Shown in pieces: positions 20,801-64,000 of a stretch of DNA of 64,000 nt. Under the pieces are notes generated by a model, which was given only the letters and a program-made list of their open reading frames with translations, searched no databases and was not told the origin of the DNA. How positions within the stretch are numbered: position 1 is the stretch's first letter; every line of letters starts with the position of its first letter. This DNA is from Mesaphorura yosii (taxonomy: Eukaryota; Arthropoda; Collembola; Poduromorpha; Tullbergiidae), in contig WIXG01000230.1 in assembly GCA_009869945.1 (NCBI GenBank), positions 62,001 through 126,000 of the forward strand, written 5' to 3'. A program made the position numbers and the translations under genes.

Positions 20801-23800
20801 TACCTCGCGCTCCTCTTGCCGTTGAGCTCAACAATGTAATTAAAATGTGTGCACCATCTAATTTTAAAGCAAGTACGCGGCCAAAGCATTTATGCGTTTA
20901 GCTCACTCCTGTACAAAATGAGTAATTGTGTTCGTAATTGCGGTTTAGGATTTTACCTCAATTCTAGGCTGAGCCGAGCTCTGAGATTTGCGGTCTGAAA
21001 ATGAAAACGAGTGAAAATGCGTGCCGAGCATCATCAAGCATCTGATTGACTGAATTCGTGTGCTTAATTGTGATTTTAGTCTCGTGAGACCTGTGATACG
21101 CTTGAAATTGGAGAATTAGAATAATGAATGCATGAAATTCACTCGCGCTCGCTCGCACTTGCTCTTGTATTGTCGAGGATCTTTTGATCTTTAATTTCTT
21201 TTATTTCAATGCAAGATTGGAATTATTAAAAATAGTTTCTTGTAATTAATTACTTTTGGTACCTGCTGCTGGCTATTCTGAGTCGTGCAGTACAGTGAAC
21301 GCAGTGTAGCGCAAGAATAGGATTCAATTATGATGAATCTCGTACTCGACTCGCGCACAGTGCGCACTGCGGACAAAGGAACGAGCAGAATGGAATTAGA
21401 TTCTATAGGCAGATAATTGGAAAAAAGTTAAGCTTCGAGCTACGCACATTCAATACGCGCATCACACAATGGGAATGTAGGTCTCTTTCGTAGGCAGGCG
21501 TTTATTATTTTATCATTTGAATCCATCTCACACACTCACACCTGTTCAATTCTCATAAATACGAATATGAATTCACACTTGCTCACTTGCTCACTGATTT
21601 TTAATTACACGCTTTTTATTTTTATCTCTGCCCATTCCAGAAAATCTTCACGTCAGCGTCTACCTACCTGAACACGGCGACGCACGGGAAAGCGTACTTT
21701 CATCAGGTCATCATCGTGATTCCCGCTCACTGGGACCGGTACTCCTCTTGCGGAGACGCAATTGGGTCAGCCTCCACGTCCGCCGTCACGTACACGAGCG
21801 CAGCCAGCGCCGAGGCGTCCGACTTCCATGTCACCGGTACGAGGCACCCGATCTTTGGCCACTACCCGTACACGCAGCAATCACAGGGCTGTGGCAAGCC
21901 AGGCGATTTCATTTCCATCGGACATCATTACTTACTGCAGTACAACGAGAGTAGCAGCGCGAGTCCCGTGCTGAACCACCACTTCTACTATCCACACGGT
22001 CGACGCGGTGAGCACCACGGCGAAGGAGACGGTGATGAGGTGCTGAACAATGCTGCTGCTTCTGAGGATGATTGGAAGACAATAGGATTCACACCAGCAG
22101 GTACTCACACATTTAATTTCACCGTGCGCTTTTACCTTTGCAGCGGCCACAGCCACTGCGGCGCTGTATTGTATTGTCTTGTATTGTTGTACTCTTTGAC
22201 TTGATTCTGAATACTCAAACCCAAATTCGAAATACCAAAGCACGACTGTGCACAGGAGCCAGCAGGAGTTGTACGCACTACGCACCAATTTTTACCTACT
22301 TTTTCGGGCAAGTAAAGCCTCTCTGGAGGCTAATAAGAATTAGAATTTATGATTATGGATATCTTTTCCCCGTTCCATCCTTTCTTCTTGGCTTGGCTTG
22401 CCAGGTTCTCTTATGAATTTTTGTTTCTTCTTTTCTGGCATGGTAGAAATAAGTGGAAAAAACGAAAGTTTAAACTTTCTCCATTTATTTGAATAGATTT
22501 GAGTAAAGTATTCCGAGACAGCAGAAAGTGAAAGTGAAGGCGAGGAAAGATACACAAATGCCCTTCGCCATTGCGTTGCGAGGCCGATGCTACTGAACTC
22601 ATTTTGGGGTTTTGAACCGAAAAAGTTTGCGAGTTTTATTCAAAGCGGGCTCGACGCAGGTCAAATCGGGCACCAGTGCCAGTGTCGGCCAGCCCACAAT
22701 TGGGGCACAGTCCAGCAAAGAGCAATTTGGGACGGCAGTTCGCCAGACTTGATTCCAAGGCATTTCTGCTATCACAGATTGACTTTCACCTTAACTTCGT
22801 TCTGACACAACCTTTAATGAATTCATAAATGCGAGTCCACAATTTTCGTTTCGAGTTTTGTTTCTTTCATTTCAAGTTGCATAATATCCGGGTCGATGAT
22901 TCCCCCATGCATTTACTTTGCGTTTTTCATATTCCTTCCAAGTTTCCATTCAGACAGCATTATAGACAAAATTTATAGTTGTGGGGTTTGATCTTTGTCT
23001 GCCGTCGCTGTATTCAGTGTACATGAACTTATCAGCAAAGCCCCGAGACCGCGTGCAGTGCCATGCAGATAAAAATAAGAAGAGATAATAACCATTGAAC
23101 TAGATTAAATCTCTTCTAGAGTTTAATGAGGATTTGCTGCAACCTGCAATCCGAGCTAAGCAAGAGGCGAATGTTGAAGTCGCAGTTGTTTTTGTTTTTG
23201 CACTTTAATATAGAATTACGACCTCGTAACTTAAAAATACATAACCACCATGCTACTATTTCTATGTTGTGCCTTGTGTTCTGCATTGCGCCTCGGATTA
23301 CCACGCTACTCCCCAATTAATTGCAACCTTTGACCTTCTGTACTCGTGCTTGTTTCAGTGGATCGCGCAATCATACACGAATGGGCCAAGTTTCGATACG
23401 GCGTCTTTGAGGAAAAAGGTTACCCAAACGATCCAATTTACCCGGTCGCCTATAATTTGGAAAGCGGAGGCGAGAAACTGCCGAGTGCGTGCACGAATAA
23501 GGCACTTAAAGGAACCTGGTAAGTGTACTTTACCTTCTGAGGCTAATCTAGTTAATTATTAAGTCTAATATGACATGACGCTATTCTGCAGGTCGAAAGC
23601 GTGCACCGACCCAACCGACACGAGTGATGGCTCCGAATGCGTCTTCATTCCTTCCACCAGTGACAGTGGGAACGAAGGAATCAGCAGTTCAATCATGTCT
23701 TACCCTGACCTGTCATCCGTCAGATACTTCTGTGACTCGGGCAATCATGTACGTGACGCTCCCACGAAGCAGAACTTCCTCTGCAAACAACAATCCATCG

Positions 23801-26800
23801 AAGACGTCATCTTCTCACATCCGGATTTCTACAACTCGACGGCAAGGTGAGTTTAAGTTGCTCATTCTGTGAGTCTAGCTAGTGGACTGCTTAATTGGGT
23901 CAGGGCATTAGTTTTCCCGTACTTTCGAATATTTATGGCGTGAGGCTCCAAACAAGCTCGAAGCTCCCTTAAGGACTGCTCTACTCACAATTTAATCAGA
24001 TTAGATCGCAGTTTTATTGGTTGCGTGTGTACGTGGAGGATAAAATTAAACAAGACAGCAAGAATACATGCTGAATCAAGAATGTATGTAGAAATGTTGA
24101 TAACGCAAGTGGTGACTCACTTGATGGCTGGGTTTAGTTGTCAATTTCGGAATGAAGCCAATAACTTCACCGTCGATAAAATGACAAAGTCGTTTACCTT
24201 CATTATCGAGCTTAGCACCCTCCCGGTGCAGAGTGCGTGTGAGTAACAAGTGTAAGTGAGTAAGGCAATTAAGTTCTGCATGCCACACCAGAGTATCCAA
24301 GCTGTTTGCTCTCTGGTAATCGACTCCAGTTCTTATTCGCAGACCAAAGTGACTAGTGACTGACTTCTGAGCATTCTCCTTTATCACTTTAATTTTATTG
24401 CTTCTGCAGCGGAATCGCATTCATTATGATTATCACATCCCTTCGCTCACTGCTGCTTGTCGTTTGCTTGTGGCGGTGTAATGGCAGTAATGGTTTATAG
24501 TTTATGTGCTTACCGTCCCGGAATGCACTGCAATGGGAATGGGAATTGGCCCGCCTTGTAAAGGTGTCCTGTGCCGAAACCCGATTCTAATTTCATTCGA
24601 CTATCTCTGTCTTTTGCTTTTCGCGTGGTTGTTGTTAATAGCCAGCCCAAATATCTTTGGCATGCCAGCCGAGTTTGGCATTTAGCATGTGGAATTCTCT
24701 AATTCGTTTTTTAACAGTTGTGCCGTATCTAAATGGCTCCAACTCCAGACTTTAGACGTTTGCTTCTAGAATTCACATTCGCATTTCGGAGCCCAGCACG
24801 CAGTTTATTGGTCTTTAATTGTGTGGAATATTAAATAAAAGAAGTTTGTGCAGTTCCTCAGTTCATAACATTCGCAGCACAGTCCGCGGTAGTTTTGGGT
24901 CTCTTTAGAATTTAGAATGCCAGTGCCAGAATGCTTGTCATCAGTCCAACACTTTGTACAGAGCACGACAGTGGCAGCAAAGTAAAAGTAATCACAATAA
25001 TAATAATAAATGATGACAAACTTTTTATTGTTTCCAAACATGCAACTTGAACCGAGCTCATTTAGGTGTCTTGTTATGTTGTTCTTCGCGTATCGTGCTC
25101 GTGGTTTGTGAGCCTTTTCAGTTGCCATTCTGTCCTGTCGTAGCCGTGTTAAGGAACCGAAGTACGTGAATAAGTAATGCAAACAACAATGAGAATACGA
25201 GCACGACGCGCACGCGAACCCGACCACGCGACATTTTGAAACCTGTGGACCTTGGCTCTTGTCTTGTCTTGAACGTGCGGACGTTGGTCTCATCTCAACG
25301 GAGCGGAGGCCAGGCGGAGGGCCGAGCATCAAAACCGTTGCAAATTAGATTGTTAATTCTGCACAGCGCAACGAAGACGCGTTCGCGTACGTACGCGTGA
25401 TCATTAACGAACTTCCACTTCCCTTCTGTTCCCTCCGCGTCCATGAGCCATGAGCAATTATAATGCGTGCGATGCGCATCAGGCATCATGCATGGCACGG
25501 ATATGAATCGAAATCTCCTCTAATGAGTACATTTAATGAGCAGAGGAGCACTGCAACTGCGAGAGCGACTAACGAAGACAAAGAACCGTTTTATTTTACG
25601 CAAAATTTTGCTTTGCATACGGCGAATAAGCCCGTCGTTTAATGCAATGTTGAATTTGAAAATTTTGATTCCTAACGTGCGGTTTTGTTTTCTGTGTTTC
25701 AGGTTCGGTGGCGGAGGAAGTGGATTCGGTACACCGGAATTTGTCATCAAACAACTCACGCATCCCCGCTACGTGCTCCTCATCGAAGAAACAGGAAACA
25801 TGAATCTACGAGTAAGTGATTTTATGGCCGACGTTTGACGATGACGACTAGCGGTGAGGTAATCTAATTAAAGTTTTGACGGGCACGGAGAACGAACACG
25901 GTTTACACGACAGAGAAGGGTGCGTCGCGTCGAGTTTATTACGTAATATAATGTGCAACTTGTTCCCATGAGCCATGTCGTCGATGTCATCGCATTGCAT
26001 CATGGCAAGGCAGAGGCAAGGATCGACGACGAAATTTTGAGCTCTTGTCAATTTGGCGATTTAGTCGGTGCGGTGTTCATGTGAACCTGAAAGTCTGTGC
26101 CCCACATTGCCACATTGCCGTGTATTGTAAAGCAATTTGCAATATTGTGAGGCTTATTTTATTGTCTCCGATGAGAGTTGTGAAAATTGCAAAAAAGACA
26201 AGACAAGGCGAGGCGAGGCTCTCGTCGAATGAGTCCTAGATACATTATTTTACAACGTGGGCACAAAAGGCAGCAGCGCGGAGTGATAGGGAAATGGAGA
26301 GTAACATGAACCCGTGAGAATTGGAGCATCCCCATCATGCCTTAACAATGAACACGTAAATAAATACGAGACTTCTTTTGATTACCACAATGCACAATGT
26401 CGTCAGTAATGTAATGCAGTAGTGTTTGTTGTTGGTGCTCTGACAGGTGCCATTATGTAATGCAATAATGAATGAACGGCCACAAATTGAAAGTGAATCA
26501 TAATAAGGTATAAATACATAAATTACAAAGCAATGACAATAAATAAACCGCACAAGATGGCAAATTTCTTTTTAATGCAGGCACCTGTCAAAATTTCAAA
26601 TTAAATTTCTATGCATACATTCAAAACTCCATTCATCAACCGCCGCGCTGGCAGTAAATTACTCTACAAAATGATAATAACGGTGACAACTGCTCCTTTT
26701 TCGCCACAAGTGTGCTTGTCTGCTTTTCGCTCGCTTTGTTGTGTCAATGGTGACGATGACTTTCGCTGAACTCTAATTATTATGATTATGCTCACTTGCG

Positions 26801-29800
26801 TTTTGCTTGTTTTGTAGGATGTCTGGAAATATCTCAAGCTTGCTGTAAGAAAATTCATTAAATACGACTTGAGTTCGGCCACCCAAATTGGTCTGATGAC
26901 AATCGGAGCAGATGTGCGGATAATTGCGAACATGACGAGTCTCGATGAGAATCTGAGGGCGACGCTCGCTGAAAAACTGCCGACGTACCCGAATATTGAG
27001 ACTTCGTCGTCGCTGAATGGACACAACGGTGGAATTGGAGGCAGCAGCAGCAGTAGCAGTGGCGGAAGCGGATTCTCGCTGCGGAGAGGAATCACTCAGG
27101 CCATAAATGTATGTCGCGCAAATGATCTTATCCGGAATGCCTGCCCTCATGCATCATATCTCATGCGAACGCCCATATTTTAATTACAGATGCTGAAGCA
27201 AAATGGGCAGCGTGTACCCGGCTCGGTCATCATCCTAATCAGTCAAGGCACAATCTCGTCCATCGATTTCGAAGCATCGCTTCACCTGCTTCGGCAAGAA
27301 GAAGTGTCAATGGCCACAATCGAGTACCCCTCGGCTGGCGATGGAAAGATTTCGTACCTCTCGCACGGTACAAACGGCCCACATTTCACGATTCGCGAAA
27401 CTGGGGTTGGGCCCATGTCGCACAGTAAGAGCCAGCACGCATTAAAGAACAGTAGCGAGATAATTTGTAATTCAGTCCGTACTCATTTGCTCATTAATCC
27501 CATTTGCTTGGGCTGCTCTGTACAGTGTCAACTTATATTCAGCTCGTGAACGCCATGATGGGCATTCAGCGGTACTACAGCAAGGGAGTCGGACTCAAAT
27601 GGCCAATTTTGGTAAGAACATAATTATTTATTATTCTCGTCGGACAGATTGATCTATTTTGGGAGTCATTCACATGCACGCATGTTAATGCAATGTTTAT
27701 GAATTGAGTAATTACCCTTTCTTCTCTCTCACCTGAATACGAATTCACCTCATTAATCTGATTCATCGTCCTTTTCTGAGCGAATGAAATGAGGTACGTT
27801 GTTCGGCACAGGCCGTCATAGAGTCGCCCCTTCGCGTTGGAGTCCGAGTCACGAGTCACGCTGGTCTCTGTTGTAATTCTATGCTGCCATCAATTTCTGA
27901 CGCGATTCCAGACGTGCTGCCATCGTTTTCTAAGCTTTTGACACTGCCTTTGCAATGTATGAATCCATTCTCGATACTTCTGTTAGAACTTGCTTGAGCA
28001 ATAATCAGTTCCAATTTCGACACTTTTGCCTTCAAATCCTCCAAGTCTTGATAATTGGCTTCGCCCAATTCCGCCACATCGAGCCCCACGGCTTCATCCT
28101 CCTCGACTGCCCGTAACCGCAGTCCGGGTACGTGGTCAATCACAAATAATATCACGTACGAGATTACAAAGGCCCAAGCCGCTGAGGCGACTGTGTCAAC
28201 AGCCTGAATTCCCACTTGCTTCCAATTGCCGTCCAGCCATCCTCCTTCAATCTCTACTCCGTCAACTGCTGCCACGGACTTCTGAGCCAGCACTCCGGTT
28301 AGCAAGTTGCCCACCATGCCACCGATTCCGTGAGCACAAAACACGTCAAACGTGTCATCAATTCGCAGCCACTTCTTTAACCCCATAGAGAGATTGCAGG
28401 CTACTGCGCCGACAAATCCAAAGGCCAGACTGGAGGTTGGTGACACAAAGCCTGAAGCTGGCGTGACCGCTACCAATCCACAAATCATGCCAACACAAAA
28501 CCCGGATGCCGAGAGCTTCTTCTCCTTGCCGCGCCAATAGTCGATCAGAACCCAAGTGAAGCCGCCGACAGACGCTGACAAGTTGGTCACGATAAAAATG
28601 ATGATAGTTCGGCTATTCGGAGCCAGGTCCGAACCTGCATTAGCAACAAGCCACCCAAGCCAGATGAAGCTGGTGCCCAGTACAACGTGCGTCATGTTGT
28701 GCGGCGGGTTTTCTGTTGGCTGAGCTCGTTTTCCAACGAGCATCGCGTACGCGAGCGCGGTTGCACCTGTTGAAATATGAACAGGCGTCCCGCCACCAAA
28801 GTCCAGGGATCCGAGTTGATTTGTCCAGCCGTTCGGATTCCACGTCCAGTATGTGAGCACGTCGAACACGAACGTTGACCAAAAGAATGTGAAGATAATT
28901 CCAGGCAAGAGTCGTGCACGTTCAACCACTGCCCCAATGATAATCGTTGGAGTGATGGCGGCAAAGAGACAGTACCAAATTCCGACGAGCAGGGCAGGGA
29001 TCTTTGGGTTCAGAGTGGACGGAGTTGTGTGATCGAGTCCCCAGAAGAAAGCGTGGTCAACGTTTCCGATGAATGGGTTCCCGGTATTGCTCAGGCATAG
29101 CGAGTATCCAATCAAATACCACTACCAAAGCGAAAGTTTCGTTCATTAGGTTGAACCTGTCAAGGCGAAACCCGCGAAAGGCAAAAATTAGCAGATATGT
29201 TGGCAAACCTGAATTGAGACCGCAGCCACCGTCCAGAAGCACCACAGGAGCAACACGAGTGAACTTTTGCCTCTCGTCAGGCCACTGTAGAGGAACCCAA
29301 CTCCAGGGATCATGAGCCATGTGATCGAGACGCAGCTCAGGAGCCATGCCATGTGTCCCGTGTCGAGTTCCGGCTCACTGAACATGTCCGACATGGACTG
29401 ATTCAGGGCCTGCTCACCTGATTGGTTGGTGCCCACCATTAACTTGGCTAAAGTTGCCATATCAGACACGGCTTGGAATCAGTATCTGGATACTACACTT
29501 TCTTTGTTGTTGATATTCTGGGAATGAATTGTGGCTTCGATTCGCGGTCGCGGCCTTTACTGGCCATATGCGACACGAGCCGTCTAATTACGTAATGGGA
29601 ACGACGAACTAGAACTCGTCTTTAATTACTCTGCGCTCGTGAGGCTGGCGAGTAGCCGTAGCAGTGCCTAACATAAATTACACTAACCCCTGAACTGACT
29701 CGAGTATTCGAAGTACAACCTCATTACATTCACCGATTCACCTGAGCCCTCGAATATGAAATACAGTACGACACAATTAGAACAAGTTATGGTAATAGTT

Positions 29801-32800
29801 AACAGCATTATGCCATGCACATAAATGCGGATGAGTTAACATGAATGTGGGCAATACGGAAAATTGGTGCTGGACCACGAACATGGACGTGGCTCATGAA
29901 CTGGTCGCATGAACATTTTACACGAGCGCAAGAGAACGCGAGGTTGACGTCTTTTTATTAACATATTTGTGCAACCTAACTCGTGCTTGTCTGCCCGTCC
30001 GCGTCCGATTCAAGGTTACGTTGTTGAAAGTTGGATTGAAGGCTGGCAATGCGTTGGACATCTTATGTCCTGTATCTTGTCCCCTTCAATGTTGACTATA
30101 GAGCGGCATGTGCCCTGCCCTACTGAAACAATGCATCTGTGGTTTACTCTTTCTCTCATTGTTGGCTAGTCGTCGTTGTAAATGAGTCGTCAAGGAGTGG
30201 CTCTGCTCTGAATATTTTATGATCAGATCATCGTTCTCATCGCCAAGAGTCTAATTAAAAACTAATATGTAGCAATATCATGCGTTGTGCAGTCAAAGGA
30301 GGGGCAAACCCAAACTTTTTTCATTAATGATGGTATTATTGCCCATTTGTCTTTACTCTGGGCGAATGCAAAATGCGAAAGCACACATTAGCGACTCCCA
30401 GCGCAGTGCTACCGTATTTAATATGCGAAAGACACACAACTGAAAGAAAACAGACTGAAGTTGAATGTTGACTATGAATTAATTAAAATGCCATTGCCTT
30501 TGCACTGCATTGCGTAATTGCACAGCCTATTTTTAATTTCGTTATTGAGTACGGGCTCAGCCCAAGACAGTTTTGAGAGAGCGAGTGTCCTCGGGCGAAA
30601 TTGAGGCAAAATCTTGTTGAAATTCGTCGTCGTCTGAGTTTGATCTTGGTCTGTGGCATGTTAATGATATTAATAATTAATTACTGCTCACAAGGCTGCG
30701 AGGCGGGCGCTCGCAACTGCAATTTTTCAAACGTTAATTAAATGCACTTAATTAACATTGAGAGTGAGCCTGGGCGCTGAACAGCACCGACGCGTTGACA
30801 GACCGCAGCGAGGTTGATGGCTTTCTGAAGGCTCGGGAGCATTATTTATCATGTTTACATTTTGGGACATTTTTGAAGCTTTTTAATGTAAACGAAACAT
30901 GCACATGCACGCGACGCCAGAATGAAATTAACGATGTCGCTTGTTCTTCTGCTACAGGTTCACCAGGAAGAGTTCAAAGGCGATGCTCCCTCGTATGTCG
31001 AGTCCTCCTTCAGCTTCGACTCCTCGCAATCGCCCGGAGAGTTTTACATTTACGTTCCAAATCCAATTGATCCGAAAATAAATCAAGTCGAGCTGATCAG
31101 TCCGTCCGGCTCAAAGTTTACCGACAAAGTTTCCAAACTACACGACATCAATATAATTAAAATTGATGCGACAATTGATCAGCCCGGAATCTGGAGATAT
31201 CGCATCCAACGACTCGGTAAGTGGAAGTTAAGCAGAGTGCGACGCGGCGTACGAGAAAGTTGGCAAACTTCACTGGAGCATGGGCGGAAACTTTTTGACG
31301 GCTCAGTTCCACTTTTGTAAATCTTTTGTTGTTTTATTGTAGGTGACTCGCACCAATCTCATTTCGTGCAAATAGTAACTTTTGGAACCTCCAATCTGGG
31401 TCTGACAGCCAGCAACGGCGGTGGTGGCGTGTACGGCAGCGCGGGATCAGGAATCGCCCAGGCACAGGCCGTGGCTCATCAACAGCAAGAACTCGTTGTC
31501 AAACTATTCTCGAACGTCGAGGCCACGCGGGTCGTCAATTTCGACACGACTCCGCTGATTCTCTACGCTGACGTCAAGCGCGGCAACTCGCCCGTCCTCG
31601 GCGCCGATGTTGTGGCGACGATCAATGGAAAATGGGTGGTGAAGCTGCTGGATAATGGAAACGGAGGTAAATGGACGGACACGAGTTAAAACGGTTTCGC
31701 TTTAGCCTGGTCATAATTTCAGTATTAACGATTCTTTTCACTTTCCACTCTCCGAAATGGAACAGCCACCATCCCAGCCTTCCAACCTTCCTCGCTGTTT
31801 CTCGGAGGAAGTTATGGAAATGTCATTTATTCTTTTCTCCTTACATTTTATATTTGCCTCGGAGTCAAGTCAAGTCAAAAGTGAAAGTTTGTCTTTAGAA
31901 AAACTTGAATAAGGACTCGAGAGTCGGAGAAAGCACCGCAGCCGAGAGCTGAGCTCTTTCTTTACATTTTGTACTTGCAAAACTTTCTCCAATAATGTTT
32001 CATGTTTCACTTTCTTGTTTCATTTTGTACTCGACTGCTGCTGTTACGTGTTTCTGACAGCAGCCTTTTGTGTTTGGTGCTGCACTAGAGAGTGAAGAAA
32101 GTTTCTAGTTTCTGTATTTTAGGCGTTTCCGCATGCAGCGCGGTGTTGGAAATTAGGTTTGAATTTTTCAACATGTTAACATGATGATAATTTGCATTAT
32201 TTGGCTCTTCTGCAGATCCCGATATAACCAAGGGTGATGGAATTTACTCCAAGTACATTATTCCACCCTCTTCCTCGCACATGACCACGCTGGATATCAC
32301 CGTGAAGGTTACCACATCGCCGTATCATTCAAGATACTACAGCTCGTCCGACTCGGCCCTGCTCCTCAGCAGGAATGGAAACAAGCAAGGCGCTGGTGAT
32401 CCAACCTGTTGTGGCTCGTCGTTGACGCAGCACAACTCCGAGTCGACTTACCGCACCATGCCGTACAATGAACGTCTCATCTACTCGTACTCGGTCAAGA
32501 TCTTTAATGCAAGAGAGCCCGGCTCCTATCCGCCAGCTCGCATTGGCGACCTGCGACTCATGGCCTCCTGGGACACGAGCGCCTCATTCGAATTTACATC
32601 ACCTGGAGATGATTACGATCATGGCACCGTCGACCAATATCATATATTTTGGAGCGGAAACAACGGACGACGAAATGTGAAGACTTTCTCTCTCAAAGAA
32701 ACTCTCCACAACGCAAGCGTGTCGACAGCAGGCAGCTCGGTGAATTTCACAATCACTTTCCCAGCGCATCGTGTTTATTTCATTACAGTGGCTGCAATTG

Positions 32801-34382: not shown

Positions 34383-36176
34383 TTAGTTTCGTCTCACAAC
34401 TCTTGGTTTTATCTTCAATTGCATACTTGCCCGAGACAAAGCAGTTGGAAAGTTGATGTAATCCGCATTTTCATTGAATTCATCTCCACTTTCTTCGTCG
34501 TGGGGCGAACTGGTTGTTGCCCGCTGTGATGTCTTCAGTAAAGGAGTACAAACTGTCATTTCTTGCTCGTGGTGGAGTTTGGTTGGTGAGCGTGGTCTAG
34601 AAAGAAATGTTTCGGATTAATAACGAAGTGAACTACAAAAATGGCGGAGGCATTGACGTCGACATACTTTCTGGGTTTGATCATCGGCTTCTCTTTGATT
34701 CGGAAGGATTTCTGCAATAGTTTACTGCCGCCAAGTGTCCGACGCTTCAAAACCACCCGACTAACTCGACTCTACAAGAAAACAAGAAAAAGATTCGGAT
34801 AATCAGATGTCTATTGCTGGAGTCGCCTCCAGCAATAGTTTCAGATTTACTATCGTACAGTCTCAGCCTCGTTAGGATCCTCGTCCACACTTGTTTCAGG
34901 CCCGCCAAACTTCTCGTGATGGAAGGACACCGTCTTGCCCTGCGCCTGGCCCTGCTCCACATCCGAGGGGGCGGAGGCGGACGCCTGCGTAGAAGTTGAA
35001 GGCCCTGATTGCGCTTGGATTCTTGTCCTGCCACCAAGCTTTTGCTTGTTTTCGTTCTCGATCTCTTCCTTCGCTGTAAGATTGCAGTGGCAAAGCGTTC
35101 CTACAGTACGGTACATCATAAACGCTAAGGAGGAAATAAAGATAACTACCTACACAAATGATACTCGTCATAAATCGTGAGTGGATCGATTCCAAAGAAC
35201 TGGCACAACTCGTCCGGTATGCATATATCCAGCACGAATATGCAGAGTCCCACAAGAACGCAAATCACTCCATTCAGCAGAACCAAGTAGTAATCCAATC
35301 CAAAGTGGGTTGTCAAATTCGTCTCTCTTGATCCGTACTCAAATGGGACTTGGAGCTCAATGTCGTTCCGTGCCAGCGTCCAAATGGCGATGGCGATCAG
35401 CTGAAAGACGCCGGTGGCAGCCAAGAACGTCGCAGCATAGCGAACCACCATGCAAAAGAGGATGTTGGTGATCAGCCACGTTGGAAACGCCAGCCTATTG
35501 GTGATAATGTACTGGACAATTAAGGGACGGGAATGGACTAAGCAGATGCAACCCTGTCAGCTTACCACATCATTATGTGAGCATAATACCCCGCCGTCTT
35601 GTAATGCCGTCCCCATCGGATTCCTTCGCCGTCAAACGTAAAATATTCAGCCAGCTGAAGAATCGGAACTGGAAGCCCTTGATAAACTGCTTTACGGTAC
35701 TCTCGATTAAACCGACCAGCATATGGCCCGAAACCAAACCTTCCCTGCCTCCATTCCCACGAAAAATGCTCGTTATAGTCGATGGTTTCATTCTTGAGCT
35801 CGTTCTTATCCTTCGGCTGCCCTCGAAGCGTGATGTTAACACCTCGCAGTCCGATGTGAAGCCCAAGGCTTCCAGAAATCTCTGCGCCTGACCCAGCCTT
35901 GTATGCGGATGTTATCTTCGCTTCTCCCGTCTCCCAGTCTTGCCCGTAATTACAGCCAATCACAATTCCACCCACCCAAAGTGTAAACAGAATTTGGCTG
36001 AACACGGCCCATCTTTTCCGGCTTGCGTACGCTGGCAGAGTGGCGAATAAGGCGATCGCAAGAATGAGGAAGGCAGTTATGAAGCCAGCGGTGAGGACGT
36101 CGACGTGGGCAGCTGAATGCCGGTCGGCGTAGTGGGTCGGGTAACCTTCGGAACGGCTGAAGCTGAACCAGGCCAT
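34383..36176 (-). CDS. Duoxa: DUOX maturation factor (DUOXA / Numb-interacting protein type), five exons, 494 aa
   Basis: Exons on the minus strand: 35566-36176, 35154-35494, 34859-35073, 34668-34771, 34383-34596; phases agree throughout (introns 71-87 nt). DUOXA proteins escort dual oxidase out of the ER and stay with it at the cell surface, where it makes hydrogen peroxide for immunity and cuticle cross-linking. Membrane segments lie at about 26-50 and 56-77. A large extracellular loop (78-200) with glycosylation sites N114 and N129 contains the conserved GRFGFGPYAGRFNREY and GLPVPILQLAEYFTFDGEG. Three more membrane segments follow, the last around VLLNGVICVLVGLCIFVLD. The roughly 180-residue cytoplasmic tail is first Ser/Thr-rich, then acidic, then basic (VLKRRTLGG) and acidic again. 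The core is certain. The tail exons were assigned from splice sites and phase and are less certain. Confidence 0.88.
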
Positions 36177-36529
36177 GGTTAATTGTAACCGTGATTATCC
36201 TAACTAAACTGAGCTGGACAAGGAGTAGTGAGCGTGGTAAAGAAGAAACAAAAGTCGACAGATATTCCGAGAATGCGCTACATTCAGGAAAATCCTGTCG
36301 AAATTCGCCAGTATGAGGAAGAGGAAATGACCATTGAGAGTGGCTCGCCGTCTTTGTTCGTTGCAAATGCACGCTGAGAGAGAATGCGGTAAGAAACAAA
36401 GTTCGAACAGTGTGATCATCTATGGCGTGTGCAGAATCAACTAGAATACAGAATTACTTGAATTAGGAGTTGGAAATAACCCTTTCTTCGAGTTAGAATT
36501 TCGTGATGTTAACGTAATTTAGGCGCATC
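36177..36529. promoter_or_regulatory. Shared upstream region between DUOXA (-) and ICT1/mL62 (+)
   Basis: The two start codons are divergent and 353 nt apart, so both leaders and core promoters must fit here unless a 5'-untranslated exon lies elsewhere. I see no clear TATA box on either strand. Confidence 0.4.
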
Positions 36530-59250: not shown

Positions 59251-62059
59251 ATGGACCTCGTCTCAGTGAGCACAAACAACAATTGGTTAGGGTTCGCAAA
59301 GAAATTGACACTTGCTTCATCGAGCACCACAATTTTGAACTAAATCTTGATTTTTTTCAGCATCTTAACAAAAGCTATTCCAATCGTTCAAGCCAATGGC
59401 AGCTCCAACGGCTACGGCACGGAGCACATGGAACTCAAGGCCGCTTGTAATGGAAGCATCATCCAAAATGGCAATAAGAACGGGAATATCGGCAATGGCC
59501 ACAATAATATTCACGCCCCAGTGCCTTTGATCACGGTGAGAAACGGTTATTTGCGGTACGGGCGGAAGATTGTATTGAACAATTTGAATATGACGGTAGA
59601 GCAGGGATCCATGTAAGTCCGCGCCCTCGTGAATACGTTTTTGCGTTGATGTCCAAATTGTAATTTGCCATTTCTGCTCCAGCTACGCGCTTCTCGGCGC
59701 AAGTGGCTGCGGGAAAACGACGATCCTGTCCTGCGTCGTTGGAGTTAGGACGCTGACGTCCGGTGACATACAGTTTGACGGCCAGAACTTGAATGACATT
59801 AAGGAAGCTCGCGGTGGGCTTCGGGATTTGGTCGGATACATGCCACAGGTTACTGAAACGCTTGAACTTGAACACAGGATTGGGCTTCACTGGTTTTAAA
59901 ATTGAAAAGTTCAATTAAACAGGAACTGGCTCTCTATAAAGAGTTTACAATTAGCAACGCACTCTTTTACTTTGGTCGAATATTCCAAATGCCCGAGCAC
60001 GAGATTCACGAGCAGATTGACTTTCTGATAGAATTCTTGCACCTGCCAAAGGCTAACACTGAAATAAAACATTTGAGGTAAGCATCCTACGCCAGCTCAG
60101 ACCAACTTCAATTTTTAGTTCTTTAGGAAGGTCAAAGAGTGAAATGTAAACTTGCTGTCCCCAGTGGTGGAGAACAAAGACGAACTTCGTTCGCAGTCGC
60201 ACTGCTCCACACACCCAAACTCTTAATTTTAGACGAGCCGACTGTGGGAGTGGACCCTCTTCTCAGGCAGCAGTAAGAAAAACTTCAGCATAAAGCATAG
60301 TGTGCATGGCCTCTCTATATCTTAGTTGACATTTTTCTCTGCAGCATTTGGGAACACCTTGTCAAACTAACCATGCATGACAAGATCACAGTGATCATCA
60401 CAACTCATTACATGGAGGAGGCCAGGGCCGCCAATTCGATTGGAATCATGCGAAAAGGGTCAATCCTTGCCGAAGGGCCACCTGCAGATTTGTTGACCAC
60501 GTACGGTTGTCTGAACATGGACGATTTGTTCCTGAAATTGTCAACGATCGATGAGTCTCGCCAGAAACCTATTCGCGAAGAATCCAAATGCATTGAAAAG
60601 CGTAAGGACAACTGGATCACGCCTCCTCCGTTGACCAAACAGGCTTTACTGCCAGCACCCGGTGTGTGCAAACGACTGAAGGCCCTTATAATGAAGAACT
60701 TCCTGTACGTTTGGCGACAACTGTCTTTCATTTTCCTCCTCCTCTTCTTTCCCGGCATTCAGTTGGCACTTTGCTGCTACGCACTCGGTGGTGAGCCGTA
60801 CAATCTGCCTTTTGGCACAATTAACCACGAATTAGCCAGCTTGAACGTGACATCTTGCCAACACAACGACCTGCTCATACTCTACGCATCTGTGAATGCC
60901 ACGAATGAAACAACGGCGGCTTGTGACACTGATCATCTGCTCCTGAGCTGCAGATACATTCAGGGCCTGTCGCAACACCCGACTCTGAAACTCAAGTCTT
61001 TTCCGAACGCATCTGCTGCGCTGGAGCAAGTTGAGAAGGGTCTTTTGTGGGGCTACATGGAATTCCCTTCGAATTTCACAGCGTTGACCATGGAAAAGGC
61101 GGCTGCTGGTCTCTTCGCTGATAATGCTACAATTTTCAACTCCCGAGTTAAAGTTCGGATGGATTTGAGCAATCACTACATCGCAGCATCCATTCAGTAT
61201 TTAATGTATCAAGAATTTGAATCTGTGATGAAGAGTATTCTTAGGGAGTGTGAACCTGCATACGTCCCAGACGTTATTGATCCGCCTATTTCGGTAAAAC
61301 TGGAGCTTCATGGTTCAATTTGAACAAAGCTGACTCCGATTTTCTCCCTGTAGTTTGATGAGCCAATTTATGGGAGGCACAAACCCTCGCTGACGGAGTA
61401 CATGGGTCCCGGTTTAATCTTAATGTAAGCTCAAATGACATCAATTTTTTTCTACAACATAGTGCTATTGATATATTTTCTACAGAATCATGTTCTTTAC
61501 GGCGTTGTCAATCACCGGAATCAACTACATCATTGAGAAACGGGAAGGAATGCTTGAACGCACAATCGTCGCTGGCGTATCGACAACCGAAGTGATAACG
61601 GCTCAGCTCCTGACGCACTACGCGACAATCATTCTGCAAATCTGCATTTGTCTCGCCATTCTGATAGGCGCATTCCAAATTCACATTCAAGGACCAGTTG
61701 GCGGAGTGCTGCTTCTGATCGTGCTTCAGGGCAGTCTCGGAATGTTTGCTGGGTTCCTTCTCTCGTCAGTCTGTGACGAGGAGAAGGTCGTGATGCAGTG
61801 GACCGCGTGCATCACAATCCCTTGCCTTATTCTCGCAGGAATCGTGTGGCCACTGGCCGCTATGCCGGCAGTGCTGCGATACGTGGCCTACATTTTTATT
61901 CCTCAAACATTTGCCTGCGAAAGTCTGCGGTCAATGATCACTAGAGGCTGGGGAATAACACATCCTGACGTCTGGCCTGGATTCGTGGTGACTCTGGGCT
62001 GGTTAATTGTGCTCTGGTTTGCAGCGCTGTTCTTTGCGAGGAGAGGCGTGTACAAATAG
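59251..62059 (+). CDS. ABC half-transporter of the ABCH type, eight exons, about 769 aa
   Basis: Exons 59251-59285 (tentative), 59361-59612, 59683-59848, 59923-60077, 60165-60272, 60345-61293, 61354-61424, 61486-62059; all phases fit. The N-terminal nucleotide-binding domain has Walker A GASGCGKT (101-108), Q-loop MPQE, signature LSGGE (202-206), Walker B LLILDEP (222-228) and H-loop TTHY. It is followed by a six-helix membrane domain with a large glycosylated loop after the first helix and the run [20 protein letters not shown]. The domain order is ABCG-like, but the motifs match the arthropod ABCH group (often named ABCG20/23-like). Several insect members are needed for lipid export to the cuticle and for desiccation resistance. 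It should work as a dimer. The 35-nt first exon uses a weak donor (GTTAGG); if wrong, Met at 59428 is the next start. The substrate is unknown. Confidence 0.9.

Positions 62060-62259: not shown

Positions 62260-64000
<1,741 letters not shown>

Follow-up and report, generated by a model that had tools for sequence, protein, structure and literature searches.

Fungal-type ammonium transporter genes in the springtail Mesaphorura yosii, with one copy antisense within an intron of a CLCA-like gene

Introduction

How does a gene which resembles the MEP ammonium transporters of fungi come to lie within an intron of an arthropod gene? Animals in general carry transporters of the AMT and Rh types and fungi carry only the MEP type, according to the part of a published survey drawn on here (PMC4814505). 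Fungal MEP proteins form a clade of their own after an apparent early transfer from prokaryotes, as set out in the portion of a second study which we used (PMC3663718). The gene in question was met in a stretch of 64,000 nt (the window) at positions 62,001 to 126,000 of contig WIXG01000230.1 of the Mesaphorura yosii assembly GCA_009869945.1. This contig, named C230 here, is 126 kb long and belongs to an assembly of 93.0 Mb in 1,127 contigs. We found 66 matches to Chitin_bind_4 in the assembly, a family typical of arthropod cuticle, indicating that the host genome is that of an arthropod. Searches for COX1 and with an 18S pattern found nothing, and a search for insect odorant receptors, run without a positive control, also gave no match.

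Results

The transporter gene and the gene which surrounds it

The minus strand of the window contains a complete ammonium transporter gene of 505 codons plus stop, spliced from two exons across a GT...AG intron of 87 nt (Table 1); without splicing, the frame runs into a stop within this intron. The protein scored 370.2 bits against TIGR00836 (amt, cut-off 343.3) and 334.8 bits against PF00909 (cut-off 23.2). The GC3 of the gene is host-like at 0.58, with six host ORFs spanning 0.47–0.59. A sequence-only reading of the window had described a 505-codon MEP/AMT gene with both pore histidines and a single 87 nt GT–AG intron, and the open spliced frame, the two family matches and the positions of the intron, His199 and His348 bear this out. 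The N terminus of fungal-type MEP proteins is 20–25 residues longer than that of bacterial Amt, according to the part of the source used here (PMC10794816). For the window protein the extra length depends on the AmtB start which is chosen, as residue 33 aligns with residue 6 of an AmtB chain of 424 residues but residue 32 aligns with residue 27 in AmtB chain 9cs5, which has 446 residues.

Table 1 Features of the MEP-type gene and of the CLCA-like gene around it, in window positions.
Feature	Position	Strand	Basis
MEP-type ammonium transporter exon 1, codons 1–84	29209–29460	-	Spliced frame; PF00909 match
Phase-0 intron of 87 nt between Gln84 and Trp85	29122–29208	-	Shared in place and phase with C39 and C118
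MEP-type ammonium transporter exon 2 including stop, codons 85–505	27856–29121	-	Spliced frame
His199 codon, first pore histidine (H168 of E. coli AmtB)	28777–28779	-	Alignment; position counted
His348 codon, second pore histidine (H318 of AmtB)	28330–28332	-	Alignment; position counted
Ala244 codon, aligned with AmtB Phe215 of the Phe-gate pair	28642–28644	-	Alignment; position counted
Possible poly(A) signal AATAAA, some 224 nt past the MEP stop	27627–27632	-	Weak: 105 such hexamers in the window
CLCA-like gene intron enclosing the antisense MEP gene	27612–30957	+	GT...AG; flanking exons fit in phase 0
Upstream exon pieces with the CLCA N-terminal domain (PF08434), approximate limits	23334–23847	+	PF08434 matches

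The transporter gene lies antisense within a 3,346 nt intron of a plus-strand CLCA-like gene, in phase 0 on both sides, which agrees with the location on the opposite strand of a CLCA intron that the sequence-only reading had given it. Six exon pieces of the surrounding gene were searched. Two upstream pieces matched PF08434, with 45.2 bits (cut-off 25.6) and with 22.3 bits (below the cut-off), and the same two gave weak matches to TIGR00868 (36.2 and 14.7 bits against a cut-off of 900.85); one piece had a VWA match below the cut-off and three had no match at all. Downstream of the MEP gene, no exon piece gave a CLCA match when searched, and these pieces are assigned to the CLCA gene through their phase fit and the usual CLCA architecture, so the putative CLCA identity of the host gene rests on its N-terminal part. 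Just past this gene, the DUOX maturation factor DuoxA (PF10204, 201 bits) is encoded at window positions 35146–36194 on the minus strand. Domains of glutamate dehydrogenase, an ammonium-handling enzyme, were found at 62847–63947 on the minus strand; their presence some 33 kb away from the transporter gene is probably a coincidence.

Affinity of the transporter

We compared the window protein to proteins of solved structure. The best matches were to yeast Mep2 (PDB 5aez and 5aex; 356 and 326 bits, 40 and 37% identity), followed by an archaeal Amt (234 bits), AmtB (184 bits) and RhCG (24 bits). The motif strings which had been read as fungal have no exact match in the two solved yeast Mep2 proteins. 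A tree of 51 rows was made from the four MEP proteins of this genome (see below), the two Mep2 proteins, 44 prokaryote proteins and a provisional sequence of AmtB. Since the patterns, the profile and the query used to find the prokaryote rows were derived from these MEP proteins, these rows are biased toward close relatives. The four MEP proteins of the host formed a group with the two Mep2 proteins (100/100), which has a stem of length 1.05 and excludes every one of the 45 prokaryote rows; within this group the four host proteins fell together (99/92).

We also built a tree of 26 rows to which the exon pieces of two AMT loci of the host (C106 and C125) and provisional sequences of two plant proteins were added, together with 14 of the 45 prokaryote rows. 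C106 and C125 grouped with the plant AMT1;1 (100/99) at a great distance from the MEP proteins, and the host MEP and fungal Mep proteins stayed together (99/98). An ordinary arthropod AMT was ruled out by this tree. The two trees support the view that the window gene is a fungal-type (MEP) transporter which is separate from ordinary AMT, as had been claimed for it. It shares with animal AMT and Rh proteins a superfamily and the expected role of moving ammonia or ammonium, but the AMT loci of its own host form a distant group.

Four MEP-type loci and a shared intron

A search of the assembly with PF00909 gave 20 exon-level matches on seven contigs, with one locus on each: four of MEP type (the window copy on C230, and C39, C118 and C725), two of ordinary AMT type as judged from the tree (C106 and C125) and one Rh-like locus (C74), so called from a visual reading of its exons and placed in no tree. 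The genome of this arthropod contains at least three, and probably four, MEP-type genes. The window protein is 49% identical to C39, 47% to C118 and 40% to C725, with the proteins of C230, C39 and C118 being 47–58% identical among themselves. In our gene models, for which the N-terminal ends of the paralogues were chosen by us, C39 has two introns (87 and 72 nt), C118 has four (66–82 nt) and C725 has none. All six pairs of the four MEP genes had a pN of 0.29–0.43 against a saturated pS of 0.75–0.86, indicating long purifying selection on the family as a whole, which cannot be claimed for the window copy alone in recent time. A membrane-protein-like ORF beside the C118 copy (L004:2516–3238) has the look of an arthropod gustatory receptor by eye and no Pfam match.

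The copies on C230, C39 and C118 each have a phase-0 intron at the identical Gln|Trp codon boundary, and this intron is therefore older than the duplications which separate these three copies. It follows that it was not gained after the gene had landed in the CLCA intron, contradicting the sequence-only reading, in which the landing was followed by the gain of a host-like intron. The MEP family is thus old and has duplicated in the host, with the window copy having arisen by DNA-level duplication there, and the shared intron can serve as an age marker for the family. The lack of this intron in C725 may be due to loss or to an earlier branching. As a group, C230, C39 and C118 had support of 90/72 in the 51-row tree and of 85/74 in a tree with Mep1 and Mep3 added, and were not resolved in the 26-row tree. 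Two other routes to the window copy were considered and rejected: a retrocopy, as the intron is retained, and a recent segmental copy, as no DNA match was obtained between the window and the stretches L013–L016, which sample the contigs of the three paralogues and cover C725 except for some 5 kb at its centre.

Origin of the MEP genes

Provisional sequences of yeast Mep1 and Mep3 (ScMep1 and ScMep3) were added to the tree; the provisional ScMep2 agreed with the solved protein at every one of 499 residues. The four yeast rows formed one clade (99/96), to which the four host genes were sister (95/93). Holding the four host genes with Mep2 or with Mep1/3 cost 8.7 log units each in the AU test (P = 0.033 and P = 0.031, with provisional sequences in two of the rows), and holding the three host genes other than C725 with Mep2 gave P = 0.006. 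The placement of C725 with the yeasts was not rejected (P = 0.315), which makes a common origin of all four MEP genes uncertain. As the host genes lie beside the yeast Mep1/2/3 group and not inside it, the donor is unproven; a donor among the sampled yeasts appears disfavoured, and this tree does not separate vertical descent from a donor among early-branching or unsampled fungi.

The published distribution, with AMT and Rh in animals and MEP only in fungi (PMC4814505) and with a clade of fungal MEP (PMC3663718), makes a transfer from a fungus to an arthropod the more likely reading, as far as the parts of these studies drawn on here extend. The uptake from a fungus which the sequence-only reading had proposed is thus likely on this background, but the placement inside fungi by which it was to be recognised was not what we found with four yeast rows, two of them provisional. 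We consider it reasonably probable that an ancestor of the host would have acquired a single MEP gene from a fungus that is not among the sampled yeasts, that this gene would already have carried the intron at the Gln|Trp boundary or would soon have gained it, that the gene would have duplicated at the DNA level with one copy ending antisense in the CLCA intron, and that the product of this copy would be a trimeric transporter with an altered gate. The window protein resembles Mep2 in its twin histidines and in the Trp and Ser of the outer site and differs from it in branching outside the yeast clade, in its gate residue, in its C-terminal tail and in its arthropod host.

Springtails are known for fungal genes (PMC5490193), which gives context and is not evidence for this gene. 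The fungus-derived genes of Folsomia candida (PMC5490193) are likewise those of a soil arthropod, and candidates among them were tested for physical linkage to native genes, but the main text does not contain the word ammonium. Among the open-access literature matches listed, none described an arthropod MEP of fungal type.

Vertical descent, in which the MEP type was present in the opisthokont ancestor, kept by fungi and by this arthropod line and lost by most animals with no transfer involved, is in our view unlikely. The sister position of the host genes to the yeast group and the four short introns of C118 speak in its favour. However, it needs many independent losses, since animals in general have AMT and Rh (in the part of PMC4814505 used), and MEP appears to have reached fungi from prokaryotes at an early stage of fungal history (in the part of PMC3663718 used).

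A transfer from a prokaryote or an unsampled protist which has this MEP type, and from which fungi would also have received it, would fit with the frequent movement of Amt genes described in the portions of PMC4814505 and PMC3663718 which we drew on, but we consider it improbable, as every prokaryote row lies across the long branch of the 51-row tree. A pattern scan of the genomes of 84,980 prokaryote species gave only 6 loci from 106 pattern matches, with 30–37% identity, and 144 plasmid records matched, none of them with at least 60% identity and the best with 35.9% among the matches listed (30 of 144). A pattern scan of viral contigs gave 0 loci from 45 pattern matches. Searches by phylum, which had matches in 20 of 23 archaeal and 56 of 119 bacterial genomes, added rows to the tree and none of these fell inside the MEP-fungal group. 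On the genome, viral and phylum searches, a prokaryote origin was rejected. The archaeal and bacterial Amt/AmtB proteins are like the window protein in belonging to the PF00909 family and in their pore histidines, but split off from it with full support (100/100).

Contamination or misassembly, by which a fungal gene would have been joined into an arthropod contig, is very unlikely given that the MEP gene sits inside a host intron on a 126 kb contig, between two exons of matching phase. The C725 contig, with its block of 59–64% GC and other foreign-looking genes, might suggest it; against this, the three other copies are on contigs of 126, 204 and 343 kb, with CLCA and DUOXA beside one of them and a glycosyltransferase-92 gene beside another, their GC3 is within the range of the six host ORFs (that of C725 is just above it) and a search for a fungal transcription-factor family, run without a positive control, gave no match. 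That the gene is an ordinary arthropod Amt which looks fungal by chance is scarcely credible, as the PF00909 superfamily is common to both but C106 and C125 group separately and tblastn with the window protein returned only weak pieces at these loci (best E = 1e−5).

Pore residues and predicted transport

We also compared the residues of the four MEP proteins at functional positions of AmtB. The window protein has Phe at F107, Trp at W148, Asp at D160, His at H168, Trp at W212, Ser at S219 and His at H318, and Ala at F215. Both pore histidines are His in all four host genes. The F215 position is Phe in 44 of the 45 prokaryote rows (Leu in the remaining one) and in both Mep2 proteins, so the window copy lacks the Phe-gate pair which is usual for, but does not define, the Amt/Mep/Rh superfamily. 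At F107/F215 its paralogues have Phe/Phe (C39), Ile/Phe (C118) and Thr/Tyr (C725); C725 also has Leu at W148 and Ser at W212, and C39 keeps the full set of residues. Of 77 positions which are conserved in 95% or more of 41 reference rows, the window copy has retained the smallest number (n = 61), compared with C39 (n = 70), C118 (n = 65) and C725 (n = 62).

Loss of F215 impairs transport in AmtB. The MEP protein would act as a trimer with one pore in each subunit, in which NH4+ would bind at the outer site (the equivalents of W148 and S219 being kept), lose a proton and pass the twin histidines. The Ala at the gate lowers the claim of ordinary transport more than it does that of descent, with faster, leakier or lost transport, or a role as a sensor, being possible for the window copy. 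The Phe-gate is highly conserved and its role is not understood, according to the part of a published account used here (PMC10794816). The MEP paralogues form a natural series of mutants at this gate, with which its function could be tested using evolved variants.

It is possible, although we hold it to be doubtful, that a gene from an early-branching fungus was transferred long ago and multiplied, and that the resulting gate variants (Phe/Ala, Ile/Phe and Thr/Tyr, beside one intact copy) would have given rise to animal ammonium channels or sensors with new modes of transport. An expanded MEP family resident in an arthropod would represent a second route of ammonium handling in an animal, where the survey, in the part used, lists AMT and Rh (PMC4814505).

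The contig of the fourth copy

The fourth MEP copy is carried by C725, a contig of 24.6 kb, and our main conclusions rest on the three other copies. A second DUOXA piece was found near the MEP gene of this contig. Microsynteny of MEP and DUOXA was considered and nothing was drawn from it, since the C725 block has a deviant GC content and no DNA match. This block (L015:2515–6095), which contains DUOXA and DUOX peroxidase pieces and an ORF that is reverse-transcriptase-like by eye, may be an assembly join or an unusual region of the host.

Two further genes on C725 look foreign. One is an intronless gene for a GH67 alpha-glucuronidase of 732 residues (L016:4031–6229; PF07488, 489 bits; closest solved protein, 816 bits), which is of microbial type and the sole such match in the assembly. 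The other, at L016:8438–9726, matched the bacterial/fungal family Bestrophin_2 in two overlapping frames.
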